In this document: positions 39,666 through 64,000 of the stretch, piece after piece | Position numbering within the stretch: the first letter of the stretch is position 1 | Layout: the number at the start of each line of letters is the position of its first letter | Assembly (NCBI RefSeq): GCF_030253575.1 | Contig: NC_080568.1 | Location: 8,328,501-8,392,500, forward strand | DNA from: Rhododendron vialii | Lineage: Eukaryota; Streptophyta; Magnoliopsida; Ericales; Ericaceae | Direction of reading: 5' to 3' | DNA length: 64,000 bases | Position numbers and translations under genes: made by a program | Notes under the pieces: generated by a model | What the model was told of the DNA's origin: nothing | The model's database searches: none | What the model saw: only the letters and a program-made list of their open reading frames with translations

Positions 39666-39689
39666 ATGACCAAAAATAATTACATAGTA

Positions 39690-43679: not shown

Positions 43680-44569
43680 GATGAAAAGGATGTAGGGGGG
43701 GGGGGTTAATCAAAACAAGGGTGGCGACGTGCATGAAGGCTAATTCGATATCAAAGTCTACATAGCGGAAGAATTTAAGGGTTTCTTAGATGGTATTCGA
43801 AAACTGATGAGATTGTAATCTTCTAATCTTCTTTTCAGGTGTGATATCCAACTGTTGGTTGGATGTTGTCTCTTGTTTTCTTTTGGCATCCAAGCACTTA
43901 TCGTTGTGGTATTTTTTTTTTCCCCTCGATGTACCTCTTTCGAGTTCTATAAAATGTTTCATTTGTCGAGAAAAAAAAAAAAGTGGTACTAGAGGAGTAT
44001 ATTTGGTATTAAAATTTGACTTACCTTAAGCGTGTATTTTATGATTTAAGTCTGATCCGGTGGTAACTACTTTAAATTTTTCTTACCTACACGTAAATTG
44101 CATGACAATAAGATTATGCTTCTTTAGCTGCATCCTTTTTACTTTCCGAAAGCTAATGCTTTATATTTTTGTTTTTTGGAATGATCAGCTAATGCTTTAT
44201 TGGCTTTACCCATAAGGCAAAAACCTCCGAGAAGCAACCCTCAAGGTTGGTCCATGCCTCCTCCCTTAATTCTTTATGAGAGTAATAAAATGGATACGTA
44301 CGTAGCTGTGTTTGAAACAAAAAGTCTAGAACCACATTAAGAAAATGCACAAACACTCATGACACACAGACTCACAACGATGCGAGCCCCAAGAGGTCTC
44401 CAAATGGGATAGAGAGAGTACTAGCTTAATTAGACATCAATTGTGCTCTAAACAACTTACAAATGTCAAATTTTGTCTTTTGCAAACGTAAACTAGCTAT
44501 ATAAATATAGCTATAGATGTTTTTGTCTTCCACAAATGTAAACAGTCCGATTAAGGTTTTTTTTTTTTT
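43680..44569. other. Intergenic, no gene seen
   Basis: A G-run at about 43697-43705 and AT-rich DNA. No exon or complete element is recognised. Confidence 0.4.
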
Positions 44570-44572
44570 TTT

Positions 44573-45085
44573 TCCTAGAACGTACTTCTTTGCTGAATAA
44601 AAAATAAGAAGGGTTCTGACTTTCGATCGTTGTTGAGAGTCGGGAGTGGACTCATGATGGTTCGAAACTAGACCAATCTGGATGATGGGAACTAGACCAG
44701 AGCTTGGTGACTTGGTGCCCTTTCCCCTCTCCCTTTTTCTCTCCATTACGGACTTCAAGTACTATTACAGTTACTACTGTTAAAAAAAGGGTTAATTAGT
44801 TAAGTTTTGTATTGAGCAGTACCATCTGAAAATCCTTCAACCCTTCTGCTAGCTAGTTGTGCAATTGACAATAAATTACCCAATACTTCTAATTATTTTG
44901 CTAATTATTTTGCAATGCTTATTGATTCATCATTTGCGAAGTGCAAATCGCTAGTCTTGTACAAGACGATAAAATATTTTCTTATCGTGTCGTAAAGAAA
45001 GTAGTACGTTGAATCCCATCACGTTCAAAACACCGGTGAACCTGATGGCGAACAGTTCACCAGATTCACGATGCTGTTCCAGTAA
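44573..45085. repeat. MYB 3' flank duplicated at 63478-64000
   Basis: Near-continuous match to the window end: TAGAACGTACTTCT, AATAAAAAATRAGAAGGGTT, GATCGTTGTTGAGA, CAGAGCTTGGTGACTTGGT, GGACTTCAAGTACTATTACA, GAGCAGTACCAT, AAAATCCTTCA, CTTCTGCTAGCTA, AATAAATTACCCAATACTTC and TTGTACAAGACGATAA. This copy has an extra 30 bases (GACCAATCTGGATGATGGGA...) that partly duplicates its neighbour; the other copy has an extra stretch of about 45 bases. Confidence 0.92.
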
Positions 45086-48000
45086 TTCTTGTTCTCTTCG
45101 AGATTGCTGCAGCAAGTTCCGGCGACAATACCTGAGTTTCCGCCTGTGATGGACGGGTATAGTTGATTAGAATTGTCGAACAACATATCACCAAACCCTG
45201 CTTCCATAAAATTTGGAAGCAGGATTGTTTCATTTCCAGTAGCCATGAAGTCATCATCTGTGGAACATCCCAAGCCCTGAAGCTGCAATAGTTCAATGTC
45301 CATTCTTTCCTTTGGATCCTGAAAATCATTTGTTGGAATTTCCAAGTCAGCCCCTGCTTTCATAATCATGCAGGCTTCACCTGCATTGGAAATTTATCCA
45401 GTGTTAGAGCAAGTCCAACCGTACGTGCCATGATAGCTTTGACATGGCCATTATGGACTGCGACACCGTCAAAACGCCAATGTAGCATCTGTACTCGTTT
45501 GGCACCATTCGACGTATACAATCTCAAAACCTACGCTCACCGCTCTGTTTCATCACTCAACATCTCACTATCCGTCTCGACAATCAATAGTTTGAATTTT
45601 AAAATAACTCTTCCCTAGAAGAGTTTTTAAAATTCGGACCATCTAAAAATAACGGTAAGATTGAGAGTGGTAGGGGGAGTGGCAAAAGTTGAGCGGTCAA
45701 CGTAGACGCTCTTTTTTTCCTTGTTTTGCTGGGGTATGTCCCTTCGAGGTTGTACACGTTTTGAGCTTCTTAAATGGAAATTACTTATCAAAAAACAAAA
45801 AAAAAAAAAAACAAAAATATTGCAATCGTGGTATTTTTGACATTATGAGCCTAAGCTATGCTATTAGAGTTCTAACTTGAAAAAGAATGACCAAAAAAAT
45901 GTCACATAATTATGTGTTATCTATAGTTCGATAGAGAGCAATTCTTTTCTATTTTGATAACTTAGGTTTCCGGGAAATAGATATAGAGGTTAATTCTTTA
46001 TATATGATGAGATGACATTACCTTTTTTTGAGAAGTCTAATGAGGATGTAAGAAAGTCAAGAGAACTGCTAGTGGCCGCAAAGGTACGGACCGCAAAGTC
46101 ATTATATTTTGGTGCTTTTAGCCATGATCCCTTCCAAGCTGTTAGAACATCCAAACAAATTGGTTGAAGAGGCAGAGGCGGCAGTGGTCCAGTAGTTGTC
46201 GCTTCGTAAACGAGTTCAGCTGAACCCAAGGAGTCGAGTTGTGTTTGAAAAGGGTTGGGGACTTGTAGCTTGGGCTCCCGAATGAGTCGGGCTTCGGCTT
46301 CAAGTCGTGCACCCTCCCACTGAGCCATGTGTTTGAGGTTGGCGGCGTCCTTCAACTGGTCAGGGCTGAGGGCATGGCTCTTCTGCTTGTGAGTCACTGG
46401 ATCAATTCCCATCTTGGTTAACCTCTTTTTGAGGTGTGTGTTCCAGTGGTTCTTGATGTCGTTATCGGTTCTCTTCGATAAGTGAGCTGCTATGATTGAC
46501 CATCTAAATCAAATTAACCATATCAGTGACAAGTACGATAAAAGAAAATATATTATTTTAGGATGATGCTACGGTGTCCCCGGTCATTTTGGGGACACCG
46601 TAACTTTTGGCATAACTGACCATTAAAAACATAACAAAAATCAGTGATGTGAATAACCAAAACCTTACAGAGGCATAACCCTCAAAATTATTTTTGGGGA
46701 TTTTGGGGGTTATGCCTTTGTAAGGTTTTGGTTATACACATCACTGATTTTTGTAATATTTTTAATGGTCGATTATGTCAAAAGTTACGGTGTCCCCAAA
46801 CAGTGGATGGACACCGTAGCATTTCCCATTATTTTAACACACAACTTCAGCAATCAGACGACAGTGGCATGCATAATTATGGTTATGGTAGCAAGCGTGA
46901 GATTTTTGATTATGTACATCAACAGATATACAATGTTGTACACATTATATACAGTACATTTTATTTCTTTATATAAGCCGGTTTATTTGATCGGAAATCA
47001 ATATCAGATTGGATTAAGGAATATATATTATATCAGTCCATATCTACTAATGGCGCCCTTAACTTGTGCCCTTAACTTGTTAAGTTAAGAATCTCATCAA
47101 TTTGACAATGTTTTTTTATCAAATTTTGATGATTCGAACCGTTTGTATTTGATCCGAGCAGTTTTTCATAATAACGTTAGAAATGTATTTTTATGAAAAA
47201 CTGTTCGGATTAAGCTATTCCCGGTCATATTTTTCGCCGATTTCTCGCATGTATTCTAAAAATCAAGTTTTGCACACCTTTAATGGTTCGAATCATCTAA
47301 ATTTGATAAGAAAAGGGGAAGTCATTAACTTAACAAGTTAAGAAACGTCCATAGTAGAAGCTTGGTGTGTATATGTATGTGTACACACACACACTTCCCT
47401 TCACCTAAGGTCGATCTCAATTAAGTTAAGTGCGGACGTCGCTTATAAGCCGTTGGATCTCATCCAACGGCTCTGATAAAAGGGGAGAACTCGCGGGTAA
47501 AATAGCACCGTGGGTCAGGTAAAATTGGTCTCGGGTCAGTCCGGTTCCCACACGCGGATTCTTTTGTTCCCAGCTTCCAGTGGACGCTTTGCTTCAAATA
47601 GAGAGAGAGAAGAGGGTGATTGAGGCCGATGAGCGACGACGACGAACAAACCGACGAAGAACAAATCAACTGCGAATACCACGAAGGGGTCTCTCTCTCT
47701 CGATTTTCCCCTAGACAAGCAGAAACCCTAACTCGATTTTTTTTTCTCTAGTAATACAAGATACACAAAGCTATCTCTCAATCTTGTGAAGGAAAACACG
47801 AAAGACTATCGGATTAGGGCTCAATTTCAAGGTATCTTATTTTCTTTTTGAATAAAAGAAATCCAAAAAAAGTAGAGTAAGATACCTTAAAATGGAGCCC
47901 TAATCCGGTGATCTTTTATGGACTCTTATGGCTATATCGATGTTACTAGCTTTTAAAAGTCAGAAAGTCTACGGTTACTGATTGGGAAATCCTGATCGGA

Positions 48001-50015
48001 ATCCCGATGTCCCGCTGGACACTCTCCGGCCACCGGATGGTCGATCCGATCCGTTCAATAATTCTATAAAAAAAACCGAGTGGGCACGTGCGAAAATAAA
48101 TGGCATCCGACGTGTGTAAGTGGCCGATCCAAGCACTCCTTTTTTGGCCGATCCAAACACTCCGTTTTTGGCCGATCCAAACACAAAAATGGAGTACTTG
48201 GATCGGCCACTTACACACGTCGGATGCCATTTATTCTCATGCAAACCCACTTGGTTTTTTTTTATAGAATTATTGGACGGATCGGATTGGCCGTTCGGTG
48301 GCCGGAGCGTGCCCGGCGGGGCGTCGGGATTCCGATCGGGCTTTCCCAATCGGTCACCGTAGACTTACTCCTGAAAAGTTGCCTTCTTATTTCCGTACGA
48401 GGTGCCTTCTGACACTGGTTGGCCATGCATGTGGGTGTAAATTATTTTGTACTCGAGAAAAGGGAAAATACATTTTTGGGGGGGTGAGAACTGCATTTAA
48501 ATCCTAGAAAGTAGAAAGCCTAGGATCACCCCTGACCGCTGTATTTACACCCCTCTTTCCAACCGCTTCACGTGGGGCTCACTTTCAGCCCTAAAAAATA
48601 CTGAAAAATGTTCATAAATTTAAAAAATATTTTTTTAAAATTTTGTAAAAAATTAGCTCAATCACATATTTGTAGGTATGTTTCCTAAATTCGAAGTACG
48701 AAATTGCGATTGAGCTAATTTTTTACATGATTTTACAAAAAATATTTTAAAATTTATGGATATTTTTTATATTTTTGCGAGGTCTCGAGTGAACCCTGGA
48801 AAAGAAGAGTGGGAATGGAGGGGTGATCGTATATGGCAAATTGATTGTGAGAAAACAACAAGTGCTCTTTCATGAGGTTGCAGGTTCCACAGAAGCTAAA
48901 TATTTCAAATCTTGTGGCCATTGGAGGTTATTCCCAGTCGTTACTTTCAGAGCCCGAAATTAATTAAGATGCGCGCAAATTGATCCAACATCTGATTGTG
49001 TATAAAGAAAAAAAGGTACCATCACTAGCAGTGTTTGTTTTTTTCTTTTTTGCTTTCTATAGTCACCTGTTTCCGAGAAGAGCGTGGAGTTGGATGATGG
49101 TTTGTTCTTCCTGCAAACTGAACTTGCCTCTCTTGATATCAGGTCTGAGGTAATTCTTCCACCTCAATCTGCAACTCTTTCCGCATCTCTGGAGGCCTGT
49201 TTAATCAAACCCACCAAAATTTCACTACCAAATGAAATAAGTTAGACCAACTGCACCAAAATAGTACTCCTACTACTCACATTTGAGTATATTCAAGTCC
49301 TTACTTCTGATCGACGGACAAGACTACTAAGTTAGGAAACAGAAAGTCTACTACTACAGACAAAAAATCTGTACGAATGGATACAAATTTCTTTTTGGGC
49401 CCATGTTGAGTATAAAAAAATTATCGGAGTCGCTCATTTTCTTTAAAATACTTTTCTTATGGTCCCTACAAAAATAAGCTTAATCCGGTATCGGTAAGAG
49501 TATTTTCGAAACATCCAAACTTTGTTCTATAAAATCATTTTTTTGAAACCCAAAATGGACTCAAAAAAGAGTTTGTACCCACTGGTATAGATTTTTTGTC
49601 TGTGTACGAGTAGCACCGTTGGTTAGGAAATGACATGTCTGACTCTGATGGAAGTTAAAATAAATTACAATACAATCATTTTATTTGGTTCAACTCTCAT
49701 CTCATCTCATTTTTCTCTTTATATGTTTCTCAATACATTTTTCTCTTTATCTCTTTCCATTCATTACTACTCATTACATCAAAACTAACTTTCAAAATGT
49801 CGAACCAAACAAGGTGAGTCTTTGTTCATGCAGAGTCTACACGGGATGACATGGCAGAATTATAAACCAATCATAGAGATACCAGCTTCTGCGGGGAGAG
49901 CACTCCAGCTTCCGGGACCGTATTGTTCAATGTAAGCCAAAAGCTTGTGGTCTTCTTGAGGTGTCCATGGCCCTTTCTTCAATCCCACCTTCTCACAGCA
50001 AGGTGGCCTGCCCAT
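45025..50015 (-). CDS. R2R3-MYB transcription factor, MIXTA-like (subgroup 9)
   Basis: Four exons on the minus strand: 50015-49883 (133 nt), 49196-49067 (130 nt), 46503-46022 and 45380-45025, giving 366 aa; the 133/130-nt first exons are the classic R2R3-MYB pattern. MIXTA/MYB106/MYB16 proteins control epidermal cell shape, trichomes and cuticle genes in the nucleus. Visible: R2 repeat ([18 protein letters not shown] to [13 protein letters not shown]), R3 repeat ([20 protein letters not shown] to [13 protein letters not shown]), the GIDPVTHK motif, the diagnostic subgroup 9 motif [14 protein letters not shown], and the C-terminal [13 protein letters not shown]. Odd residues for this clade: RWKNYL (usually RWTNYL) and [15 protein letters not shown] (usually HLPKRTDNEIKNYWN), possibly relaxed after duplication. 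Introns of 686, 2563 and 641 bp carry several mobile elements. A second copy begins at the window end. Confidence 0.95.
45405..45710. mobile_element. Possible MITE in MYB intron 3
   Basis: GAGCAAGTCCAACCGTACG at the left and GTTGAGCGGTCAACGTAGACGC at the right suggest degenerate inverted ends. No clear target duplication. Non-coding. Confidence 0.35.
46561..46827. mobile_element. Mutator-type hairpin MITE in MYB intron 2
   Basis: Exact 9-bp duplications ATTATTTTA (46552-46560 and 46828-46836). Ends GGATGATGCTACGGTGTCC and, from the right, GGGAAATGCTACGGTGTCC; the arms pair over about 115 bases on each side (ACTTTTGGCATAACTGACCA, AAAATCAGTGATGTG, CCAAAACCTTACA). The whole 267-bp element folds into one hairpin, 58 bases from exon 3. 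Confidence 0.93.
47057..47349. mobile_element. Foldback MITE related to family A, in MYB intron 2
   Basis: Ends CTTAACTTGTTAAGTTAAGA and TTAACTTAACAAGTTAAGAA, inner ATCAAATTTTGATGATTCGA against CGAATCATCTAAATTTGAT and a central palindrome around GAAAAACTG. Family A wording (CCGGTCAT, TCGCCGATTTCTCGC) is retained but diverged. Confidence 0.7.
47448..47472. repeat. Perfect short palindrome
   Basis: AGCCGTTGGAT and its exact complement ATCCAACGGCT are separated by three bases, in the MYB intron 2. Such CCGTTGGAT motifs are frequent in plant mobile elements. Confidence 0.8.
47811..47910. repeat. Short inverted repeat
   Basis: CGGATTAGGGCTCAATTTCA then AGGTATCTTA (47811-47842) pairs with TAAGATACCTTAAAATGGAG then CCCTAATCCGG (47879-47909). 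Arms of about 32 bases with a loop of about 36. Preceded by a leader-like stretch with AAACCCTAA that may be a captured 5' UTR. Confidence 0.8.
47955..48375. mobile_element. Large foldback element with inner direct repeats, MYB intron 2
   Basis: Arms of about 165 bases: left AAGTCTACGGTTACTGATTG, GATCGGAATCCCGATG, ATGGCATCCGACGTGTGTAA, GTGGCCGATCC; the right arm is the complement. In the centre GGCCGATCCAAACACTCC is repeated about three times. The six ORFs in this interval are palindrome artefacts. Boundaries are approximate; no exact target duplication found. Confidence 0.8.
48505..48845. mobile_element. Foldback element, MYB intron 2
   Basis: Arms with AAAATTAGCTCAATC / GATTGAGCTAATTTTTTACA, AAATTTAAAAAATATTTTTTTA against TAAAATATTTTTTGTAAAA, and outer GATCACCCCTGACCGC against GGAGGGGTGATCG. 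Non-coding. Confidence 0.65.
49380..49620. mobile_element. Old MITE-like stretch in MYB intron 1
   Basis: ACAAAAAATCTGTACGAATG-type text at the left and CCACTGGTATAGATTTTTTG at the right make weak inverted ends; TTATCGGAGTCGCTCATTTT and CCGGTATCGGTAAGAGTATT are shared with 41930-42020. Confidence 0.5.
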
Positions 50016-50221
50016 CCTAGAGAGAGAGAGAGAGAGAGAGATGTTTTCCTTGTTTCTTTGTCTGTTCTCTTTTAAGCGAAGTAAAGATTGGAGGATGTGA
50101 TGGGGATAGTTTGAAAGGCACATCGCATTTTATGAAGGTGGAATATTGGACCATTTAGTGGGATACTCCTCTATGGATGTACTAGTAGTACAAAATTTGT
50201 TGGATTTATTTACTCTATATT

Positions 50222-51270
50222 GATTTTCCTAATGCAAATTTCACTGACCTCCCCTAAGGTTTCTAACATGAACCTTGAGGTTTTTGAAATGACACTACCC
50301 TTTCCTTCTTTACCTGACAATACCAATGGATCCCCCTCCATTACCAGCACGTTAGAAAATGGATGGAGAAGGTGATGTCATTGTACTATACGTTTTATAA
50401 TATCTATACTATCCTCACCAGAATCTTTATCCTTCTCATTTATAAAATATAAAATATAAACATCACTATATTTTATGCTCGTTTTACTTTGAGTTTTTGT
50501 CCTTATTTAAAGAGATTCACATTTGTTAATTTTCTGTCAAACTTTTGTGAATTATTGGTTCGTCTAGATAAAAGGAATTGAAAAAGTAAAAATTTAAGAC
50601 TTTTACCAAATATTTTGAGAAATTCAATATTTTGGATAAAAGTAATAATTTTATACTCTTTTGATTCCTCTCATTGAGAAAAATCAATAATCCTCAAAAA
50701 TTTAATGCAAAATTAGAAAATACGAAAAAAAAATCCAAATATGATCAAAAATAAAAAAGCATAAAAATCTCACAAACAAGCCCGCACAAAAAATTCGAAT
50801 ATGAACAAAATTAAGACTAAAAAGCCTAAAAATCCCACAAACAAACCCCGTAAAAACCAAAAAGCCTAAAAATTCTACAAACAAGCCCGTACCCTCCGTT
50901 GCTAGCAGTTTAGAAAATGTATGTATTTTTGCACATGTATATTTTCTAACAAATATGAATCCTTTTAAATAAGGGCAAAATCTCAAAGTAAAACGAATAC
51001 AAAGTATAATGACGTTTGTATTTTATATTTTATAAATAAGAGGGATAAAAAGTCTGGTGAGGTTAATATAAGTATTGTAAAAAGTATAGTACAATGACAT
51101 TACATTCTCCATCCATTTTCTAACGTGCTGGTAACCGGGGGGGGGGGGGGGGGGGGGGTCCCTTGGTTTTGTCAGGTAAAGGAGGGGAGGACAGTGTCAT
51201 TTCAGAAACCTCAAGGGAGGTTTCTCTTCATGGCAGAAACCTCAAGGGAGGTCAGTGAAATTTGCCCATT
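50222..51270. mobile_element. Long-TIR (Mutator-like) foldback element
   Basis: Left arm from GCAAATTTCACTGACCTCCC (50236) through GAGGTTTTTGAAATGACACT, CCAGCACGTTAGAAAATGG, TTTATAAAATATAAAATATA to about 50530; the right arm (about 50935-51265) is its complement, ending GGTCAGTGAAATTTGCC. GGGCAAATTTCACTGACCTCC ends are typical of a plant Mutator-like group. No matching 9-bp duplication was found. A poly-G run (51138-51158) interrupts the right arm. Confidence 0.75.
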
Positions 51271-51289
51271 TTTGGCTGAGGACGTTGTA

Positions 51290-52049
51290 CCGAAAATTGC
51301 TACTCCCGCCCCCCCGTGCCCGGCCCGGCCCGGCCCCACCTCCCTTTTCCCAATTTGCCCCCCCCCCCTCCCCCCCCCCCCCTCCCCCCCCCCCCCTCTC
51401 TCTCTCTCTCCCTTTTCTTTCTTTCTTTCCTTTCGGTTTCCTTTTTTTTTTTTTCCCTTTTCTTTTCAATTTGGTTTTTTTTTTTCATTTTATTTCATTT
51501 TCTTTCTTTTCGGTTTGAATTTTTTTTTCTCTTTAATATTTGGTTCAAGTCTAATTCTAGGCTTTGTAAAATAATTAAGAGAAAAAAAATGTTTCAATTG
51601 ATCATGTTTATACAACTGTTTTATTTTTCTTTTTTTGTCCTTTATAGATTAAAAAATATAGTTACGAAAATAACGATCATTTAGGATGAAAGGCCTTGGA
51701 GCCAAAAATTTATTACGATCATTTAGGATGAAATGATCAGAAAAATAACATCTTTGCACTGTTTCAAAAGGATTGAAAATTGAAACACTTATTTTCGTAA
51801 CTATATTTTTTAATCTATAAAGAATAAAAAAATAAAAATAAAACAGTTGTATAAACATGATCAATTGAAACACTTTTTTTTCTTTCAATTACTTTACAAA
51901 GCCTAGGATTTGACTTGAACCTATCATTAAAGAAAAAAAATTCAAACTAGAAAGAAAGAAAAAGAAATAAAATGAAAAAAAAAATCAAACTGGAAAGAAA
52001 AGGAAAAAAAAAAGAAAGAAGAAAACTGTAAAGAAAGAAAGAAAGAAAA

Positions 52050-52089
<40 letters not shown>

Positions 52090-52200
52090 CGGGGGTAATT
52101 CCGGGAAAGAGTGGTGGGGCCGGGGGGTGTGTGGGGGGGGGGGGGAGGTGGGGCCGGGGGGTGTGTCGGGGGGGGGAAAAAGCAGCCCTCCGTTGTACCC
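51290..52200. mobile_element. Giant foldback with G/C homopolymer ends
   Basis: Left arm (about 51310-51680): C-runs, CT repeat, then T-rich text and ATGTTTATACAACTGTTTTA, GATTAAAAAATATAGTTACG. Right arm (about 51785-52190): complement of the same, ending in GA repeat and G-runs. Two copies of CGATCATTTAGGATGAAA lie in the loop (51675 and 51717). All ORFs here are low-complexity Pro/Ser/Phe runs and are not genes. Confidence 0.75.
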
Positions 52201-52841
52201 TTTAATTAATTTCCCGGAAAAAGGCTGCTACTAGGTAGGTCTGTCAGTGAATTACTGCTAGTAGGGTCCGGTCATAAATGTTTCCTGAGCATGTACATTA
52301 GTGTATAGACAAAAATACTAGTCAACGTTTACCAAAAAAAAAAAAATTCAAGTCAACAATATACAATTTTTCATTTTATATAGTCATATCTCTTTCAACC
52401 CTACATCAATATTATTTATTTTACATGTTATGTATTAAAATATTAATTTTACCTATGTACAGGTGAGAGGAAGAGGGGAGAAGAGGAGAGAGAGTGAATG
52501 GAAAATTAATAAAATAATAGATGCATGGTGGATAGTGATTAGGTATATTTATCCATTCACTGTTGATGGATACATTTTACCTAGGCCTTTATCTAATCTG
52601 TTGCAAAGTTCATTTGGGGGTTTTGCTTCGGTAAAATAGCTAAAAAGGTCTTTTACCTCTTTTGATGTACTTGCTCTAATAAAGGAAGATTTTTGCCTGA
52701 TCCGGTGCGCTTTGATCATCTTCTCTTTAACGAAAAATTTAATTAATGTCGATCATGATTAGGATATTACTATGTGATTTTTAGATAGAAAACAAAAAAA
52801 AAGGCGGGAACAATTCTGCCAATGCATTAAGTATTCAGGTG

Positions 52842-53308
52842 CAGAGCCGTCTCATAGGGCAGGCGAGAGAAGCAACTGCTTCTAGCCCCTAAATGAAAAT
52901 GCAACTGCTTCTAGCCCATAAATTTTGGTCAAAATTTGAGGTCCCAGTGTAATGTAACTTAAATATAAATATTACTCATAGAAAATTTCCAAATGAAAAT
53001 GCAATGATGTACTTGGTTCAGTGGTGAGATAATATTGTCATGTTAAAATTGAAAAATTTGAGCGAGCTATTACTGTTTGTTATTTTTTTCACACAAATCA
53101 TATTTATAATTAAATATGAAGTAAACTATCTTATTTTTCTTCATAAACACTTGCAATAAAATCTTTTTACGTTTATGTTGCTGTAATTGTATCCTTTGAG
53201 TTTGATTTTTTAATACTTTGACCATTTTTTGTAAGGAATTCGTGAATATGTAAGAGGTCCAACATTGGGAATTTGCTTCGGGCCTTCGAAATATATGAGC
53301 CGACACTG
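52842..53308. mobile_element. hAT-like element, exact 8-bp TSD (unit 1)
   Basis: TTCAGGTG at 52834-52841 and 53309-53316. Ends CAGAGCCGTCTCATAGGGC and, from the right, CAGTGTCGGCTCATATATTT. 467 bp, no transposase. Confidence 0.9.
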
Positions 53309-53755
53309 TTCAGGTGGAGTTCCACTTAGAAAAATTACATTTTGAAGGTTTTATCCTTATTTAAAAGAATTGTGTTCGTTAGTTTTACGCCAATTTTTTT
53401 GTGAATTATTGATTCGTTTCATCGAGAGCAATCGAAAAAGTAATTTTTTTTACTTTTATTCAAATATTTTGAAAAATAACCACTTTTCGGCAAAAAGAAG
53501 AAAAATCGACAAAAAGAAGAAAAAAAAGTTTTTGCTGAAAAGTTGTTATTTTCTAAAATATTTGGTAAAAATATATTTTTTTCTTTTTCAATTTTTCTCA
53601 TCTTGATAATCCACAAAAAGTTTGTCGCAAAAACTTTTTAACGAAAAATTTAATTAATGTTGACCATGATTAGGATATTACTATGTGATTTTTACATTGA
53701 TAGAAAACAAAAAAAAGGCGGGAACAATTCCGCCAATGCATTAAGTATTCAGGTG

Positions 53756-54193
53756 CAGAGCCGTCTCATAGGGTAGGCGAGAGACACAACTGCTTCCAGC
53801 CCTTAAATTTTGGTCAAAAATTGAGGTCCCAGTGTAATGTAACTTACATATAAATATTACTCATAGGATGTTTCCAAATGAAAATGCAATGATGTACTTG
53901 GTTCAGTGGTGAGATAATATTGTTACATTAAAATTGAAAAATTTGAGCAAGCTATTACTGTTTGTTATTTTTTTCACACAAATCATATTTATAATTAAAT
54001 ATGAAGCAAACTATCTTATTTTTCTTCAAAAACACTTGCATTCAAATCTTTTTACGTTTATGTTGCTATAATTGTATCCTTTTAGTTTGATTTTTTAATA
54101 CTTTGATCAATTTTTTTAAGGAATTCGTGAATATGTAAGAGGCCCAATATTGGGAATTTGCTTCGGACCTCCAAAATATATGAGCCGACACTG
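53756..54193. mobile_element. hAT-like element, exact 8-bp TSD (unit 2)
   Basis: Same TTCAGGTG duplications at 53748-53755 and 54194-54201 and same ends as the copy at 52842-53308, so it was copied by the tandem duplication rather than by a second transposition. 438 bp; a 29-bp gap separates the copies, near GCTTCTAGCCC in unit 1. Confidence 0.9.
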
Positions 54194-54761
54194 TTCAGGT
54201 GGAGTTCCACTTAGCAAAAATGACTTTTTGAAGGTTTTATCCTTATTTAAAAGAATTGCGTTCGTTAGTTTTACGCCAAATTTTTGTGAATTATTGATTC
54301 GTTTCGTCAAGAGCAATGGGAAATTTTTTTTTTTTTTACTTTTATTCAAATATTTTGAAAAATAACCACTTTTCGGCAAAAAGAAGAAAAATCGACAAAA
54401 AGAAGAAGAAAAAGTTTTTGCTGAAAAGTTGTTATTTTCCAAAATATTTGGGTAAAAATATATTTTTTTCTTCTTCAATTTTTCTCATCTAGATAATTCA
54501 CAAAAGTTTGTCGCAAAACTAACGAATGAAATTTTTTTTGAATGAGGACAAAACTCCAAAACAAATTAAGCGAAACGCGGCCTCAAAATATGGTCGCCAA
54601 TTGTGATCCTCATGGTACTATTGTTTTTTTAAGTGCGAAGAAGAATTTCTTAACCTTTGAATTGAGAATTACATCAAATATTAAAAAGACCCCAAGCATA
54701 CCAACAACCCCTAGCATACCAACAAAGTTGGTAGTTGGCACCAAAGTATGGTTTTAAATAA

Positions 54762-55665
54762 GGGCAATGATACGCCCACCGCGTCTAACCCACCGAACAA
54801 CCCACCGCATCACCCATTGGCCGACATGTGGTGGTGGGCCCCACCTTTAAAAAAAAAAAAACCAGAAATGAGTCCACACCCAATTGAGAGAGAGAGAGGA
54901 CTGAGGAGGAGGAGGAGAACGGCCACAACTGCAGACGACCACCACGACCGCCGTCCCTCAAACCTTCTTTCCAAGTACACCAATAATCCCTGATATCCTT
55001 CCTCATCACCCCCTTCTCTCTCTTCCCCCATTTCACACCCTCTCCTCTTCTCTCTCTAGAAAAGACTCCAAATCCCAAACAAAAACTAACACACCAGGCT
55101 CCTTCGAAAAATCAACAACTAAATAAATAAAAAAAGAACTAGAACCCTGCAATTAGAGAATAATCATAGGCCTCGATGTCCGGGTGTGCTTGGAGACCAG
55201 GTAGGCGTTCTCGTCAACGAAGACGGTGCGGCCATTGCGGTTGAGGACGTGCCAGAGAAGGGTTTCGTGGGTCAGGCCAAAGATGAGGAAGTTGCATTTT
55301 GGGGCAGCACCGGGAGGACGGCGGTGATGGATTTGAGATCGTCAGAGGCGGTGGAGTTCGGGGTTAAGCCGTAGTGTAGGAGGGCGTGGAAGATGGGTTT
55401 GGGTAAGGGGCCGCCGCTCCTGTCAGCGGCAGAGGAAGCGGTTGTGGTGGCGGTGATGGGAGTTTTGGTGGTGAGGACTGAGGACAGGGAAGCGGAAGAA
55501 GAGAAAGAAGGAAGAGGGGTGAGAGAGAGAAAGAGAGAGAGAGGGGGTGGGACTGGAGTTTTCTGGTTTTTTTTTTTTAAAGGTGGGGCCCATCGCCACG
55601 TGTCGAACAATGGGTGATGCGGTGGATTGTTCGGTGGGTTAGACTCGGTGGGTGTATCATTTCCG
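54762..55665. mobile_element. Pack-MULE carrying a DUF579 gene fragment
   Basis: Exact 9-bp duplications TTTAAATAA (54753-54761 and 55666-55674). Inverted ends of about 110 bases: GGGCAATGATACGCCCACCG at left; CGGAAATGATACACCCACCG from the right; both continue with TCTAACCCACCGAACAA-like text and a CACGTGTCG-type motif near GTGGGCCC. The interior is GC-rich and coding-like, unlike all neighbouring DNA, with the minus-strand DUF579 relic at 55145-55450. No transposase. This is the structure of a Mutator-like element that has captured host gene sequence. Confidence 0.9.
55145..55450 (-). pseudogene. Captured DUF579 (GXM/IRX15-type) gene fragment
   Basis: Minus strand, in three pieces by frame: GGPLPKPIFHALLHYGLTP... 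(about 55427-55325), then [20 protein letters not shown] and [19 protein letters not shown] (about 55305-55185), then [10 protein letters not shown] (about 55182-55153). The order and motifs (PLPK.xF.ALLHY, CNFL.FGL.HE.LLW, NGRTVF.DE, HP.IEAYD) are those of the plant DUF579 family, which includes glucuronoxylan 4-O-methyltransferases and IRX15 of xylan synthesis in the Golgi. At least two frameshifts and the missing C-terminal half make it non-functional as an enzyme. Confidence 0.8.
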
Positions 55666-55849
55666 TTTAAATAATGGTAGCATTTGTATTGTACCGATAC
55701 TAAGAGTATTGCAATATATATAGTTTTAGAAAAAAACGGAGTTTTGCAATAATTTTTGAAAAAAATATTTTTAATTTCCTGAGTATAATCGAGTAATGAT
55801 CGAGTATTGGCCGTGAACCGGTGGTGTGATAGCGGCAGCTACAACTGTA

Positions 55850-56125
55850 AACGAACTGAGCTATTCGTGAGTTTCGAGCAATAAACAAACCGAACTGTTC
55901 GCGAGTAGCTCAAAACTCGAATCGAAACGAGTTGTTGATGAGTTTCGAGCAATAAACAAACTGTGTTCGCGAGTTTTGAGCAATAAACAAACAGAACTGT
56001 TCTCGAGAAGCGCGAGTACCTCGAAACTTCAATCGATAATAGTTCGCGAGTTTTGAGCAATAAACAAACAGAACTGTTCTCGAATAGCGTGAGTAGCTCG
56101 AAACTCGAATCGATAATAGCTCGGA
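55850..56125. repeat. Minisatellite of about 70-90-bp units
   Basis: GAGTTTYGAGCAATAAACAAAC is repeated four times, each followed by GAACTGTTC(T/G)CGAG and GTAGCTCGAAACTCGAATCG-type text. ORFs in it follow the repeat. Confidence 0.85.
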
Positions 56126-56189
56126 TGGTCTCAATTCGTGATACTCTAAACAAACGAGCTAGAGCACTCAATTTTGGCACGTTTCGTTT

Positions 56190-56545
56190 ATATATTTGCG
56201 AATTGCCGAGCTCGAGTTATCCAAAGCTCAGCTCTAATCAATTTGTGATACTCTATACAAACGAGCTAGAGCACTCAATTTTGGCACGTTTCGTTTATAT
56301 ATTTGCAAAGTTGCCTTTGCAAAGTTGCCGAGCTCGAGTTATCCAAAGCTCAGTTCGAATCAATTGGCAAGTTGCCGAGCTCGAGTTATCCCGAGCTCAA
56401 CTCGAATGCTCGAGTTAAATGCTCAAGTTCTCCAAAGCTCAGCTCGAATCGGCTCGCAAGTTAAATGCTCGAATTATCCAAAGCTCAACTCGAGTGAGTT
56501 GCGAGCTCAAGTTATCCAAAGCTCGACTCGAATTGAATCGCGAGT
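56190..56545. repeat. GAGCTCGAGTTATCC minisatellite
   Basis: At least six copies of a unit like GCCGAGCTCGAGTTATCCAA followed by AGCTCAGCTCGAAT; one larger block (GATACTCTA..ACAAACGAGC to TATATTTGC) is also duplicated (56139-56206 and 56246-56305). Non-coding. Confidence 0.85.
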
Positions 56546-56576
56546 TTGTATATGTGTATATATAAAATACAAGAAG

Positions 56577-56765
56577 GCTCATTAAATTGGCTGACAAGAC
56601 TTACAATGTTTAAAATCACGTGGAGGAAAGAGCTACCACCATGAAGCCCCTCATTAAATTGGCTGACAAGACTTACAATGTTTAAAATCATGCGGAGGAA
56701 AGAGCTACCACCATTAAGCTTGTTTAAAATCACGCGGAGGAAAGAGCTACCACCATGAAGCTTAA
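56577..56765. repeat. 73-bp tandem repeat, about 2.5 copies
   Basis: Unit: CATTAAATTGGCTGACAAGA, CTTACAATGTTTAAAATCA, CGYGGAGGAAAGAGCTACCA, CCATGAAGC. Copies at about 56580-56651 and 56652-56719, then a partial at 56723-56762. High similarity, so recent. Confidence 0.9.
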
Positions 56766-56769
56766 GGGA

Positions 56770-57230
56770 GCGTTGGCCAGGAGTCCATAGTATATGGACT
56801 TATAATGCAATAAGGACATCTATAGTTTCTATACTGGCGCCAGGGCTTGTGTCACCGGTTTTCCAAAAACATCCCTAACTCATAAAACACGCCCAAATAT
56901 TAAAATAAACCCACGCTAGAGAGAGGGAGAGATCTGTTGATTTCTAACGCCCAGAGAAGAGGTGGCAACGGTGGATAGCGCCGGCAGCGAGGTGAGGCAA
57001 TTCTGGGTGCCGGAGGTGAGGTGAGGACTAAGAAAGAGTCACCGAAGCCTTTTGTCGGAGATGAAGTTGTTACCGCAATCGCCGGCGGCGAAATGCCGTC
57101 ATGTAGGGTTGGCTCATCTTCTTTCTTTAGAGCCAAACGGCTTGGGCTGAAGTTGGCTGATTGGCTTCACTTCAGAAGTTCTCAAATTCAGACATTTTTT
57201 AGAACCTCCGTGGATGATTCTTATAATGTA
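56770..57230. other. GC-rich coding-like segment, unrecognised
   Basis: At 56940-57190 base composition is coding-like in both directions (plus ORF 57021-57242 and minus ORF 56900-57136), with GCCGGCGGCG and GGAGGTGAGGTGAGG. I recognise no domain. It may be another captured gene fragment, but no terminal inverted repeats were found. Confidence 0.25.
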
Positions 57231-57231
57231 C

Positions 57232-57402
57232 AGAAATGTTAGGGACAAAGAAAATTTATTCCGAAACTATCCCGAAAAGATCAACTAGTGGTTGAGATTC
57301 ACTTTGATGTGAGTGATACAATCATCAAAGTGATTCTCAACCATTAATTGCTGTTTTCGAAGTACTTTCGGAATAAATTTTCTTTATACTTAGCATTCTC
57401 CT
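57232..57402. mobile_element. Small hairpin MITE
   Basis: Left arm AATGTTAGGGACAAAGAAAA, TTTATTCCGAAA, GGTTGAGATTCACTTTGATG pairs with the right arm TCATCAAAGTGATTCTCAAC, TTTCGGAATAAATTTTCTTT, ACTTAGCATT. About 170 bp with a short loop. No exact target duplication was identified. Confidence 0.8.
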
Positions 57403-57639
57403 GTACTGTATAGTTTTGAGAAATGAAAGTGAGCAATGGCCTTTTGTCTTCCAAATATTGACTGTGAGGTCTTCCGTGAAGGAGCACAGAGAACAAGGGC
57501 GGATGGCAGGAAGTGGAAAGAGGACAAAGTTCTCTTGGGAAGTACAATAACTTTTTGGAGCTTAATGGTACAACCACCACATCCCTTTTACCATACAATT
57601 AGACAATTTACTGTATGATTTTCCAATTAATGCAATTTA

Positions 57640-57930
57640 GTTTTTCAAAAAAAAAAAAAAAACTACTATATCTTTTGGTTGCCATGTTTCTTTCGGTTTT
57701 TTTTACCTAAATTATTATTTTGGTATATATTTTACATTTATAGTAAGCTTACATTATTATTTTTTCTTTTAGGCAATTGTAAAAAATGAAACACATATGT
57801 TCGCTAGGATAGATAACATTATATGTCAGTCTTTTGGGATAAAGAGTATAAATTTGAATAGATAACTAAATCTGTTAATTTCATTACGATTATACAAAAT
57901 ACAGAATTCGCAGAGTTGATCTTATTTATT
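57640..57930. other. AT-rich, no gene seen
   Basis: A poly-A run at 57647-57662 then AT-rich DNA that grades into the repeats at 57930-59220. Confidence 0.4.
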
Positions 57931-59220
57931 GGTCTTTCTAAAAAAAAATAGATAATATGAATTTGGATAGATAATCTTATTTGTCAGTCTTTTGGAGATA
58001 ATAAAGAGTATAGATTTCGATAGGTAACCATATCGATTGATTTTAGTGTGATCATATAGAGTACATAAATCACAAAGATAATCATATTTGTTGGTCTTTT
58101 TGAAACAATACAGAGTATAGATTTGAACTATAACCATATTTGTTGATTTTATTACGATAATAAAATAAAAAACAAACTACAAAAAAGGTGCCAAACTCTC
58201 AAATAATGTTAACTGTGTTAATTTATTCTTTGAATTTTGTACAAAACAAAAAATAATATTATCTATTCCAATATATTCATTTATTGTTTTCAAAATAAAA
58301 TAATAGATAATGTTATCAATGTCAATATATTCTTTTCTAAAAATATCAAAGAAAAGTCCTAAAAGCATTTTCCAGACCTTTTTCATAGATTTTTTTTTTA
58401 AAAAGGTAAAAATTATTTTAAACTTTTTTTACTTCTCTCTTCAACAAATAATGAAACACTTATATTCGTTAGAATAGCTAACCTTATTTCTCAATCTTTT
58501 TGGCTAAAGAATTCACAGAATTGAACTTATCTATTGATCTTTCTGGAAAAAAAAAATAGATAGAATAAATTTGGATAGATAACCTTATTTGCCAATCTTT
58601 TGGGGATAATAAAGAATATAGATTTTGATAGATAACCATAACGATTGATTTTCTTGTGATTTTCTTGCGCTTTTACAGAGTACATAATTCGTAAAGATAA
58701 TCATATCTGTAGATCTTTTTGAAACAATACAAAGTATAGATTTGAGCTGATAACCATATCTGTTAATTTTAATACGATAATAAAATAAAAAATAAACCAC
58801 AAAAAAGGCGCCAAACTCTAGATAGATAGTGTTAGCTGTGTTAATTTATTCTTTGTATCTTGTAAAAAACAAAAAAAATAATATTATCTGTTCCAATATG
58901 TTCATTTTTTGTTTTCAAAATAAAAAAATAGATAATGTTATCTGTGCCAATCTATTCTATTCTGAAAATATCAAAATATTAGTGACCTGATAACCATATC
59001 TGTTGATTTTATTATGATAATAAATAAACCACAAAAAGGTGCCAAACCCCCAGATAGATAATGCTAACTGTGTTAATTTATTCTTTATATCTTGTAAAAA
59101 AACAAAAAACAATATTATCTGTTCTAATATATTCGTTTTTTGTTTTCAAAATAAAAAAATAGATAAAATTATCAGTGAAAAAATCTATTATATTCTGAAA
59201 ATATCAAAATACTAGTGACA
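57930..59220. repeat. Degenerate tandem array, units of about 250-600 bp
   Basis: Recurring words in the same order: TTGGATAGATAA, CAGTCTTTTGG / CAATCTTTTGG, ATAATAAAGA(G/A)TATAGATTT, GATAACCATA, ACACAAAAAAGGTGCCAAACTC-type text, TTAACTGTGTTAATTTATTC, AATATTATCTRTTC, AATATATTC, TTTTGTTTTCAAAATAAAA, GATAATGTTATC. The series occurs at about 57935-58345, 58545-58975 and (partial) 58985-59205. ORFs are not conserved between units. Confidence 0.8.
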
Positions 59221-59221
59221 C

Positions 59222-59500
59222 ATTTGCAGATAAGTGTAAACAACTTTAACTGAATGGAGACCGGTTCACACCTTTACTGGAATCAAAATACTAGTGACAC
59301 ATCACTTTGCTACAACCCAATAACACATCTCTCACATACAGGTGGGTTCCATTGAAAGACAAGTACAAACAACTTTAACCGAATGGGGACCGGTTCACAC
59401 CTTTGCTGGAACCAAAATACGTACTAGTGACACATCACTTTGTCACACTCCAATAATACATCTCTCATATACAGCCTAATACAGGTGGGTTTCATTGAAA
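59222..59500. repeat. Tandem duplication of about 135 bp
   Basis: Two copies share AACAACTTTAAC, CGAATGGGGACCGGTTCACA-type text, CCTTTGCTGGAA, CAAAATAC, ACTAGTGACACATCACTTTG, ACATCTCTCA, ATACAGGTGGGTT and CATTGAAA. Separate from the array to its left. Confidence 0.85.
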
Positions 59501-60246
59501 TGAGTCATAAATATATGTGAGAGGAATGTAGTTGGAATGTGGCAAAGAGATGTGTCCCTAGCTAGCATCTCTTATGGTGGAATAATTTTTCTTGCTTAAA
59601 AGTTACAGCGGTAACTATACTCTTTAACCTTGCCGACTGAATAGGAGGGGCAACTGTCTCATCTCTTGTTCCCTTTCCTTTCTCTACTTTCCATTTTTTT
59701 CCCTTCTCTCTACTCATACTATCATCGCTGAATTACATCTCTATTTTTCTCCCCAGTCATTTATCTTCAAATAAGAAATGATCCTACCACCAACGCTACC
59801 TCTGGTGCTATCCCAATGTCTTCTCCACTGCCGTAACATCTTCCCGATTGAGCAGCCACAGTTGGGTGTCTCCCTCGATTGAAAAACCACATGACCTCCT
59901 TGGTCATCAAATAGCAACGGACAAAACAAAGCAAATTACATAACAATTCGAGAATTTGCCATGGCCACACTGTGGCAACGATCGGATTTTGTCTCCGATG
60001 AAGTATTCCGTCAAAAAATTCGCAATCAGAGAATTTATTGGCGAATTCGACCGTGTAAGTGAGCTTTGGGAGAGAATTGAGGATTTTCATCTTCGGGCCA
60101 TTGTTCGCCGGCGGCGGAGGAGATAATCATCTACTTGAACTCGTTGGACATAACGAGTGGCTCTGCGACCATCTGCTTGAACTCGTTGGCCTTGGTGTCG
60201 TTGGTGCCGCTACCAAATGCAGAACACCCTCTGCGTCGGCGAGTGG
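59500..60246. other. Unrecognised segment with coding-like stretches
   Basis: Pyrimidine-rich DNA (59640-59760) followed by moderately GC-rich stretches (59780-60240) open in several frames (for example minus 60090-59767 and plus 60059-60340). No domain or splice pattern recognised; possibly captured or decayed gene sequence. Confidence 0.25.
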
Positions 60247-60342
60247 TCGAATTCTATTTGCTTTGTGTTTGTGTGCGGTCTTTTTTTCAAATGAGAATTC
60301 TATTTGCTTTGTGTTTGTGTGCGGTCTTTTTTTCAAATGAGA
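60247..60342. repeat. Exact 48-bp tandem duplication
   Basis: The unit GAATTCTATTTGCTTTGTGT followed by TTGTGTGCGGTCTTTTTTTC and AAATGAGA occurs twice back to back with no differences seen, so it is recent. Confidence 0.9.
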
Positions 60343-60349
60343 GACTCGT

Positions 60350-61234
60350 AGCGTAGGGCTGAAACCGACGCAGCACAATATCCGGTAAGACCGGAGTCGA
60401 ATCCACAAAGACGGTGATGTGTGCTGACTAAAAATTCAAGTTGTTATAATTTAAATGAGCTCTTAAGTAGCCACCCCTTGTCGATTTGGTTGAGATTAAT
60501 AAAAACTAACAAATTGATGTATTCTTTCAAATAAATAAAAGAAAAGTACGGGTTCATAGCACTGCTCTGTTTGGAGTTCTTAAAAACATTTAATTATAAA
60601 TTGAAAAAAATACATTTTTTTCAATACAAGGACGTTAGACTTTATAACATTTACATTAATTGACTGTACACTTTGCGACAACCTGGGCTAAGTGCCCTAT
60701 TTGGCCACTTCTTTTAGACTGATGCCCAATTTTCTAGAAGCTTAAATAGGGGAGGGAATGGTCTTGAGCTGGTAAATCTTCCGATGTGGGACAATGTTCA
60801 AGTGAACTTCCTCCTTTATGAGGTGGTGGCTCCACATTCCCTTGAGCGCTGAACCTACCATACCATCATGATTTCGAGCCAAAGTGAGCCGAACTCAAGC
60901 CGAAAAAAGTGAGATCGAAACATGATTTTTTTAATAAAGATAAAAATAAGTCGTTTATTGACTTAAATTTGTCTTTGTTAAAAAATTTGGGTTTGTCTCG
61001 TACCTTTTAGATTCCTCTCGTTGTGATTGCTTCTATGACGAAAAACTAAAAAATGCAAAAAAAATTGAATAAGAAAAAAAAAATCTAAATGAATTATTTG
61101 GGCAAAATCTAAATGAATTATTTGTGGTCCCATAACTTCCATTTGAATAGATATCTCTAATCAATCTCACAAATATAATCCACCTAATTATTACAGAATA
61201 TTAACTAGGCATGTCCACCTACCCGACCGATGAC
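60350..61234. other. Retroelement-like fragment then AT-rich DNA
   Basis: GACGCAGCACAATATCCGGT, AAGACCGGAGTCGAATCCAC and AAAGACGGTGATG (60371-60419) is wording found in plant LTR retrotransposons; no matching partner repeat is present. The remainder has no recognised feature. Confidence 0.35.
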
Positions 61235-61239
61235 CATAC

Positions 61240-61913
61240 TATTGGAAATTTACGGAATTTCGGTTGAATGAAACCGGAATTTTGGAGGGTCTTCCGAGGC
61301 AACCAGTCCCTGGTTCGTTGTATCTGGACGCACCACCACAATCAATAGACGTATTGATGTGTGTGGCCGTAACTCCCGCAGCATTACTCCTTCCTATGAT
61401 GGCCATGATGATGTTTTATTCAGCAATTGATGGCTGTTTTATTCTTGTAACCTCCAAGCATTTGATGGCAGCATAATGGCTGAATTCATTTCAGCAATTG
61501 ATGGCTCTATTCACCCCTTCTTCCTCCTCCACTCTATATAAAGGAGGCTCACGTTTGGAGGAATAATAAGAAAATTCCAGCCCTTCCAATAATTCCAGAA
61601 TATTGTTCTTTGAGAGAGAGTGACAGGCGGTAGTCAGTTCGGCAAGGCGGTCGACGGCGGTGTTCCGACGGCTTGCGGTTTAGCCGAGCCAACCCTGGGA
61701 GGAAGACGTCGAACAAGAACCTTCAACACCGACGGTAGGCGGTGAATCTTTCTTAAGGAGACTGTGGTATCACACAGGACTCGGTTTGATTTTCATTCAA
61801 TCTGTTTGTATCTCGTTTCATAATCTGTCTATTGTTATGTATTCTGTAACTTCGAATTATCAATGGAATTGTTCTCTGGAATTTTTCTGTTATTGCCGTA
61901 TTTTTTCCCAACA
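61240..61913 (+). mobile_element. Solo LTR, 5-bp TSD
   Basis: Exact CATAC duplications at 61235-61239 and 61914-61918 flank a 674-bp LTR starting TATTGGAAATTT (a mutated TGTTGG start) and ending TTCCCAACA. Inside, TATATAAAGG near 61534 is a good TATA box and the downstream text is leader-like, as in an LTR promoter. No primer-binding site, polypurine tract or second LTR is next to it, so it is a recombination product. The 70-codon ORF within is not a gene. Confidence 0.9.
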
Positions 61914-61918
61914 CATAC

Positions 61919-62374
61919 CTGACCCAACCGAAAAATAGGCATAACAGATGAGATTGATAACCTTTATCGGTCAGGTTCGGGCCAGATTTGTTGGATATTT
62001 CATTTGGTCGGTCGAGTGTCGGATGCACCTAATCATTTTTCAATCCAACCAGACCAGATCAACTGTTTACATATATAAGAAGAAAAACCCTAATTCGGCC
62101 CTCCACTACTCCACACATACTCCTAATTGATTAGACGACCCAAGAACCCTAAATCCTAATCGATTAGACAACCCAAGAACGCTAATCGATAACCCAACTC
62201 CTCTCTCTCTCTCTATCAGAAACCAACACCTCGCCGCTCCCCTCTCAGAGCCTCCGACGATTGACTCAGTGACTCCGAATATATGGTTCATGTATCTGAT
62301 ACTATTTTCAATGACTCCAATTTGGTATGTAGTTAAGTTCGTTTAGCTTATCTTTGTTTTTATCGGGGAAGAAA
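61919..62374. other. Leader-like sequence with a short tandem repeat
   Basis: AACCCTAAT-type text and CT-rich DNA at 62085-62260 look like a plant 5' UTR. A unit of about 30 bases (TAATYGATTAGACRACCCAA then GAACCCTAAATCC) is repeated about 2.5 times at 62124-62192. No coding sequence follows. Confidence 0.35.
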
Positions 62375-62690
62375 ATATTGTGTGATCACTTAATAAGATA
62401 CATTGGGGAAGGATTAGTAGCCAAACATCATGGTTTATTACAACATTTTTTTATGGTGCTAGTTACGTATTATCTTTGTAGTTATGAACTTATGCATGAA
62501 TGTGTGCGGTATGCACATAACATAACGGTCAGTTTGACAACTATGAAAAATATTATTGAAAGTAAGTATCGTGTACTACTCCCTCAAATAATTTTCAATT
62601 TTTTGTTTGGATAAGGGCTGAAATATTTCATTTAAGGCAAGTTTTTCTCCATCTCTTTCCACCAAAAGTAGCTCATGCTAAACCCGGTCG
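62375..62690. repeat. Duplicated block, partner at 39690-40200
   Basis: See the partner block: same text order from GTGATCACTT to TTTCCACCAAAAGTAGCTCA. It lacks the family B MITE and the TA repeat present in the partner. It lies on the same side of the second MYB 3' end as its partner does of the first. Confidence 0.85.
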
Positions 62691-62821
62691 AGAAAGCGTG
62701 AGATTGGGGGAAAGGCGGGGTTGAGAATAGCGATTTCGAGACGGGTTTTGGGTGTTCTTGTAAGGATAATAGTAGTAGCAGGTGTGAAAGCGGTGCTTCT
62801 GATTCGTCTCGTGATGTTTAT

Positions 62822-63108
62822 TGATATACACACCCCTTATTTAGGTGTGTATCATATGCACCTCCCAAAATGTTATGAATTATAGAGAAAATGTTACGAA
62901 TCATATTGCTAAAAAGTTACGAATCGTATAAAGGTTACGAGATACACCAAAATGTTATGAATCATAATGAAAATATTACGAATCGCACTGTTGAAAAGTT
63001 ATGAATTCTAGAACAAAAGTTACGAAACACTCTAAAACATTATGAATGAACCATAAAATAGGTGCATATGGTACACCATTTTAAAGGGTGTGTATTGTAG
63101 ACTTTCCC
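62822..63108. mobile_element. MITE with inner 20-24-bp degenerate repeats
   Basis: Inverted ends of about 40 bases: GATATACACACCCCTTATTT then AGGTGTGTATCATATGCACC at left, and from the right GTCTACAATACACACCCTTT then AAAATGGTGTACCATATGCACC. Between them about nine units of the type AAAATGTTACGAATCATA follow one another with point differences. No ORF. Target duplication not resolved. Confidence 0.75.
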
Positions 63109-63109
63109 T

Positions 63110-63477
63110 TCAGGGTTCATTGTTTCGATCTATAAACTAATTTTGTATTCAGTACTGCTAAGTGGATCGACATTGGGGAGATACTCCTAAATTGCAACTC
63201 GGCCATGGTTTCGTTAATTAATGAAATAGAGCAATAGATCTGTTGGGGAATGCTAAGAGAAACCCAAAGCCAAGCTCTATAAGCATCCCCTCTCTCTCAG
63301 TTCAAGCTCTGATAGGTTTAGAGCATGAGACTCAAACAGAACGACAAAATAATCCTATGGATTTGAAGAGGCATTCTGGTAAAGCAAATGATGTGGTGAA
63401 GGGTAATTAAGTCATGTAATGAAAGAGTTTTGACAAGAACAAAATAGGTTTTGACATTATCAGCATCCAATTTTTTT
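63110..63477. other. Intergenic, no gene seen
   Basis: No exon or element recognised. The homology to the 44.5-45.1 kb block starts at about 63478. Confidence 0.4.
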
Positions 63478-63941
63478 TTCTAGAACGTACTTCTCTACTA
63501 AATAAAAAATGAGAAGGGTTCTGATTTTTGATCGTTGTTGAGAATCGGGAGTGGGCTCACGATGGTTCAAAACAAGACCAGAGCTTGGTGACTTGGTTCC
63601 CTTTCCCCTCCCCCGTTCTCTCTCCATTCCGGACTTCAAGTACTATTACAATTAGTACCTTTAAAAAGAGTGTTAATTAGTTCAGTTTTGTACTGAGCAG
63701 TACCATTAGAAAATCCTTCAGCCCTTCTGCTAGCTAATTGTGCAATTGACAACTACTTTATAACACTAAAATGCATTTCACAACACCATTCAGTTACAAT
63801 AAATTACCCAATACTTCTAATTATTTTGAAATGCTTATTGATACACCATTTGTGAAGTGAAAATCGCTAGTTTTGTACAAGACGATAAGATATTTTCTTA
63901 TCGTGTCGTACAAGAAGTTAGTACGTTGAATCTCGTCTCGT
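63478..63941. repeat. 3' flank of the second MYB gene, duplicate of 44573-45024
   Basis: Long, nearly collinear match to the flank of the first MIXTA-like MYB with scattered substitutions and two indels. Contains the conserved CGATAAGATATTTTCTTATCG inverted repeat near 63871-63893, present in both copies and possibly part of the 3' UTR. Confidence 0.9.
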
Positions 63942-64000
63942 TCAAAATATCGCCGAACCTGATGGCGAACAATTCACCAAATTCAAAATGCTGTTCCAGT
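63942..64000 (-). CDS. Second MIXTA-like R2R3-MYB, 3' end only
   Basis: On the minus strand the last codons read [18 protein letters not shown] followed by TGA at 63944-63942, aligning with the first gene's [18 protein letters not shown]. The remainder lies beyond the window. The C-terminal NYWNSILNLV motif is typical of MYB106/MYB16. The open frame and conserved end suggest this copy is still coding, but the DNA-binding part cannot be seen. Confidence 0.9.
   Translation of the reverse strand, partial: WNSILNLVNCSPSGSAIF

Follow-up and report, generated by a model that had tools for sequence, protein, structure and literature searches.

A cluster of six MIXTA-type MYB copies in Rhododendron vialii, with four complete coding frames and one copy filled with LTR retrotransposons

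The window (the whole stretch of 64,000 nucleotides that was analysed) contains a complete subgroup-9 R2R3-MYB (MIXTA-type) gene and the 3' end of another, and both belong to a cluster of six such copies spread over 234 kb of a single contig, C12. A sequence-only reading had described a tandem MYB duplication with its second copy at the window edge; the duplicate is real, whereas the simple pair of two genes was rejected. All cluster positions are given in window coordinates, continuing past 64000, and the strands run as three minus copies followed by three plus copies. Copy 1 (50015-45025, minus) presents a complete four-exon frame; copy 2 (103705-63942, minus) is readable in exons 1 and 2 and at the 3' end; copy 3 (about 143.1k-119.6k, minus) is a pseudogene; and copies 4 (198231-202297), 5 (237526-240714) and 6 (274493-278975), all plus, again present complete four-exon frames. 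The explanation that we regard as likely is that one ancestral MIXTA-type gene underwent several local duplications, most likely later than the Ad-beta genome duplication, leading to six copies on one chromosome. Four of them retain complete coding frames and show purifying selection on average, and copy 2, the closest relative of copy 1, is most likely dying, with a core tryptophan of R2 lost and its span swollen to 39.8 kb by successive LTR-retrotransposon insertions.

The copies were counted directly in exon searches of the whole genome (532,647,506 bases in 13 contigs). On C12 the exon 2-3 peptide identified exon 3 in at least five copies and exon 2 in at least five, and no further close member of the cluster was found genome-wide among the matches listed (150 of 269 candidates scored). 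The same was true of the exon 4 peptide (8 of 8 candidates scored, 6 matches), which identified that exon in copies 1, 3, 4, 5 and 6 and also matched the C10 paralogue once, weakly. Intervals 156-195 kb, 205-233 kb and 248-271.5 kb were covered by these two peptide searches only. The next relatives matching through the subgroup-9 motif, among the matches listed, were those on C10 and C8.

Copies 1, 4, 5 and 6 splice to 366, 351, 349 and 365 residues, respectively, with no internal stop; in all of them exons 1 and 2 measure 133 and 130 nt and the introns are GT-AG. The exons of copy 1 are 50015-49883, 49196-49067, 46503-46022 and 45380-45025 (minus strand), separated by three introns, and a 167-residue stretch scanned against Pfam matched Myb_DNA-binding in two stretches (E 2.6e-36). 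Adjacent R2 and R3 repeats, which define an R2R3-MYB, were identified, the best solved homologue being WER (6kks, E 3.6e-41). From what we take to be general for this family, the products of the four copies are expected to be nuclear proteins that activate epidermal outgrowth and cuticle genes, and an epidermal role is what we infer for them. Intron 2 of copy 1 also contains, at about 46567-46820, a MITE-like long inverted repeat whose two ends are both GGTGTCC-like, as judged by eye. Among 10 window ORFs scanned against Pfam for other genes, three had a family, unrelated to the MYB cluster: PsbQ (10016-10678, minus), Mpo1-like (14228-14899, plus) and cytochrome P450 (23563-24135, minus). These are ordinary plant genes or parts of them.

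The signature of subgroup 9, in the form given in PMC4028877, is AQWESARxxAExRLxRES, and the motif is placed about 30 residues downstream of R3 in the tomato account (PMC10965086). It was identified at residue 148, where copies 5 and 6 retain 13 of the 14 fixed letters and copies 1 and 4 retain 12; the exact string occurs in none of the four because all share a change of S to G. The paralogues on C10 and C8 also retain 13 of 14. By these motifs the cluster is assigned to subgroup 9 of the R2R3-MYB family. In a protein tree of 135 columns with long branches flagged, the cluster falls together with C10 and C8 and separate from a gene on C7 that is presumed to be 9B, at 91/93 on a branch that was not starred, the 9A and 9B labels of these three genes being ones that we infer. 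The cluster copies are not a single clade in this tree, copy 5 standing with C10 and C8 at 70/88. The C-terminal part of the C10 paralogue lies whole in one exon, where the cluster copies have an extra intron. In the C8 paralogue (L047, about 3478) an in-frame stop is present just before the conserved C-terminal NYWN...NSSP motif, and this gene may be truncated or further spliced.

Synonymous divergence was estimated by the Nei-Gojobori method, with the comparison to C8 ending at the subgroup-9 motif (167-169 codons). Between the four intact copies and C10 or C8, Ks is 1.6-2.9, at or above the mean for At-gamma in Rhododendron (1.65-1.71, with 0.61-0.67 for Ad-beta, as listed in Table 4 of PMC6907397), values over 1 being near saturation and single-gene Ks a rough guide beside genome means. 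Between C10 and C8 the value is 0.79 over 169 codons. As a rough guide, C10 and C8 would be near an Ad-beta pair, and the cluster would have split from both at about the time of At-gamma or earlier; for the intact copies this split appears to be ancient and saturated. The 87 codons of copy 2 give 1.81 to C10 and only 0.95 to C8, the latter running against a clean gap.

Inside the cluster Ks ranges from 0.13 to 0.48. The divergence of copies 1 and 2, which the earlier reading had left to be estimated, is 0.13 (87 codons only); copies 4 and 5 differ by 0.14, copies 1 and 6 by 0.25, and copies 1 and 6 from copies 4 and 5 by 0.43-0.48, whereas copy 2, over its 87 codons, stands at 0.24 from copy 6, 0.26 from copy 5 and 0.32 from copy 4. 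Since this range lies below the published Ad-beta mean, the cluster probably expanded after that duplication. Pairwise Ka/Ks for the six pairs of copies 1, 4, 5 and 6 is 0.21-0.43, and the synonymous excess was significant in the three pairs tested (copies 1 and 6, p 4e-12; copies 1 and 4, p 2e-16; copies 4 and 5, p 9e-4). Polarised non-synonymous/synonymous counts were 24/23 in copy 1, 12/22 in copy 6, 27/12 in copy 4 and 15/14 in copy 5, by which constraint seems weaker in copies 1 and 4 than in copy 6.

The tree of the six copies, in which 3867 of 5069 columns were retained and copies 5 and 2 were flagged for a deviating letter composition, joins copies 1 and 2 at 100/100 and copies 4 and 5 at 100/100, copies 3 and 6 being placed without firm support. 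In the best tree copy 3 stands with copies 1 and 2 at 72/77. With copy 3 held as sister of copy 6, an idea taken from shared intron starts, p-AU was 0.246; with copies 1, 2 and 6 forced together it was 0.143. Among the single-piece trees, exon 2 alone gave no starred branch. In copy 3, exon 1 has gained 5 nt and exon 3 has lost 11 nt (sizes by eye), no exon 2 was found, and intron 2 contains one LTR element nested within another.

The flanks of copies 1 and 2 are duplicated as well. When the last 3 kb of the window were compared by BLAST with the window itself, a near block at 63471-64000, beside copy 2, matched 44566-45083, the final coding part and 3' flank of copy 1 (both minus), in direct orientation with 79.1% identity over 554 columns; its E value of 1e-142 places the match far beyond chance. 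The second subgroup-9 3' end with a collinear 3' flank, as described earlier, is thereby genuine. A far block (39684-40201 beside copy 1, 62375-62682 beside copy 2) was likewise found duplicated, its two pieces (39684-39861 against 62375-62520, E 3e-30; 40028-40201 against 62531-62682, E 3e-29) having identical order and orientation on both sides. A third far block was identified outside the window at 114317-114639, in a search that kept only places beyond 60000. The far block occurs beside copies 1, 2 and 3, and near-block (3') parts in copies 1, 2, 3 and 6. With close homologous copies and duplicated flanks, these are tandem or proximal duplicates.

Far and near blocks lie 4.37 kb apart beside copy 1 (40201 and 44566) and 0.79 kb apart beside copy 2 (62682 and 63471), close to the 4.4 and 0.8 kb first proposed. 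This spacing was altered after duplication, the copy 1 far block being split by an insertion (39862-40027) missing from the two other far blocks; within it, 39894-40011 is a repeat with a second occurrence at 26716-26833 and a partial match to its own reverse complement. About 2.7 kb 5' of the copy 1 start codon a 0.9-kb block is present twice, head to tail (52723-54518, comprising 52723-53632 and 53634-54518, 90.6% by BLAST), and its counterpart upstream of copy 2 is single and in pieces (104038-105249). The doubled block could be promoter sequence or a repeat. In these flank comparisons matches under 80 or 100 bases were dropped. Another element upstream of copy 1, at 51329-52124, is 0.8 kb long and palindrome-like, with a 78% match to its own reverse complement.

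The part of copy 2 visible in the window (63942-64000, minus) contains the last 18 full codons (63998-63945) and the stop TGA (63944-63942). The MYB exons to be expected upstream of this 3' end were identified outside the window by exon search, exon 2 at 80474-80345 and exon 1 at 103705-103573 (both minus), so that exon 1, exon 2 and the last 59 bases make up what can be read. A search of the readable sequence at E 0.05 did not bring up exon 3; the stretch directly past the window reads N, and the exon could lie there. Compared with copy 6 (matches under 100 dropped), copy 2 matches at 102415-103861 (274331-275806), 80325-80667 (276104-276440) and 69456-69848 (277249-277638). Its intron-2 homology to copy 6 ends at 69456, and 69312-69514 matches an intron of copy 3. 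The first core tryptophan of R2 is replaced in copy 2 (W17R, read directly as CGG against TGG in copies 1 and 6), where exon 1 encodes KGPRTPEED in place of KGPWTPQED (copy 1) or KGPWTPEED (copy 6). Tryptophan, which we take to be a core residue of the MYB repeat here, stands at this position in copies 1, 3, 4, 5 and 6 and in all three solved homologues that were aligned (WER, c-Myb and B-Myb).

Three LTR retrotransposons, about 30 kb in total, lie inside the introns of copy 2. One is in intron 2 (about 70.0-78.8 kb, LTR pair starting at 70024 and 77034) and two in intron 1 (80.8-90.7 kb, pair at 80771 and 89585; 90.9-102.3 kb, pair at 90926 and 101377), identified as direct pairs of at least 150 bases and at least 75%. 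All three present a 5-bp target-site duplication, by eye and with LTR ends shifted a few bases. The JC distances of the LTR pairs are 0.108, 0.033 and 0.002; by the same measure copies 1 and 2 are 0.128 apart around exon 2 and 0.137 apart in the 3' flank. The insertions most likely postdate the duplication since their distances are the smaller ones, the order of the oldest not being firm because 0.108 comes near the values between copies 1 and 2. With 2 differences in 949 sites the youngest pair is almost new, which indicates that insertion into copy 2 continued until recently. A further, short LTR element was observed past the window at 105250-108444, about 1.5 kb upstream of the copy 2 start codon, with a pair identity of 96.6% and a 5-bp target-site duplication by eye.

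Decay of copy 2, with probable loss of function, is the explanation preferred, and three others were weighed against it. Copy 2 might be a working gene with giant introns, where W17R is tolerated, exon 3 is simply unread and the retrotransposons are spliced out. Long introns alone do not silence plant genes; the exons that can be read show no frameshift or stop, exons 1 and 2 have GT/AG splice sites, exons and intron remnants stand in order on one strand, and R2R3 Ka/Ks against copy 1 is 0.11, over 87 codons only. Given the open exons, the splice sites and this ratio, decay may be very recent or absent. We nevertheless consider a working copy 2 unlikely in view of the conservation of W17 in homologues and sister copies and of the recency of the last insertion. 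Still less credible is that the 3' end, exon 2 and exon 1 are separate relics joined by rearrangement: the pieces are spread over the whole span with exon 3 unseen, but they share order, strand and intron-edge homology with copy 6, and LTR elements with target-site duplications occupy most of the intervening sequence.

The least probable explanation, for which only the position at the window edge would speak, is an assembly or haplotype duplicate of copy 1. It is practically ruled out by differences at 12-13% of aligned sites in two stretches, by which copy 2 passes as genuine; moreover copies 1 and 2 carry different insertions, and, if the genome is haplotype A of R. vialii, it is a long-read assembly with 5 gaps (PMC10338486). 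The preferred reading thus stays that of a genuine copy 2 in decay. The earlier suggestion that copies 1 and 2 could split roles in trichome, papilla and cuticle control fares poorly beside W17R, the unseen exon 3 and the retrotransposon load of the introns, and is unlikely because copy 2 is probably being lost. If roles are split, copy 1 together with copies 4, 5 and 6 may be the better candidates. We would give very little credence to a lineage-specific Rhododendron MIXTA-type array where the four intact copies divide control of hairs, scales, petal papillae and cuticle, and the W17R copy 2 acts as an R3-only competitor damping its sisters.

Hairs, scales and leaf surface vary strongly among Rhododendron species, and a subgroup-9 MYB cluster in which some members are intact and others decaying suggests itself as a candidate locus for this variation. 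Caution is needed as automatic annotation may merge or miss copies with retrotransposon-filled introns. No published account of this cluster was found in the literature on MIXTA or MYB and Rhododendron, judged by title. The text of a four-genome Rhododendron R2R3-MYB survey (PMC10070854) contains neither 'trichome' nor 'SG9', and its subgroup tables or supplements may well list subgroup-9 genes; in a blueberry MYB survey (PMC8296672) MIXTA is named in the reference list only.

As a system the cluster is one of ordinary local duplication followed by loss, mildly informative and not new in kind, since tandem MIXTA-like genes are known in cotton and an LTR-damaged subgroup-9 MYB in peach. The cotton MYB-MIXTA-like (MML) genes described in PMC4028877 comprise GrMML3 and GrMML4 with a gene fragment, and GrMML8, GrMML9 and GrMML10. 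These are also tandem subgroup-9 R2R3-MYBs, with a degenerate fragment beside intact members, but form groups of two (plus fragment) and three, whereas the Rhododendron cluster has six copies with an orientation change half way and belongs to another plant order. In peach, the nectarine allele of PpeMYB25 carries an LTR insertion in exon 3 that truncates the protein and co-segregates with hairlessness, as reported in PMC3940905. As in copy 2, a subgroup-9 MYB was struck by an LTR retrotransposon; the peach insertion is exonic, whereas those of Rhododendron are intronic, in one copy, and known from sequence alone. Tomato, with four MIXTA-clade genes and one MIXTA-like gene according to the main text of PMC10965086 (where the word 'tandem' does not occur), resembles Rhododendron in having several subgroup-9 genes in one genome. 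Finally, the C10 and C8 paralogues of the same genome share the R2R3 domain and the subgroup-9 motif with the cluster and differ from its four intact copies by the high Ks given above.
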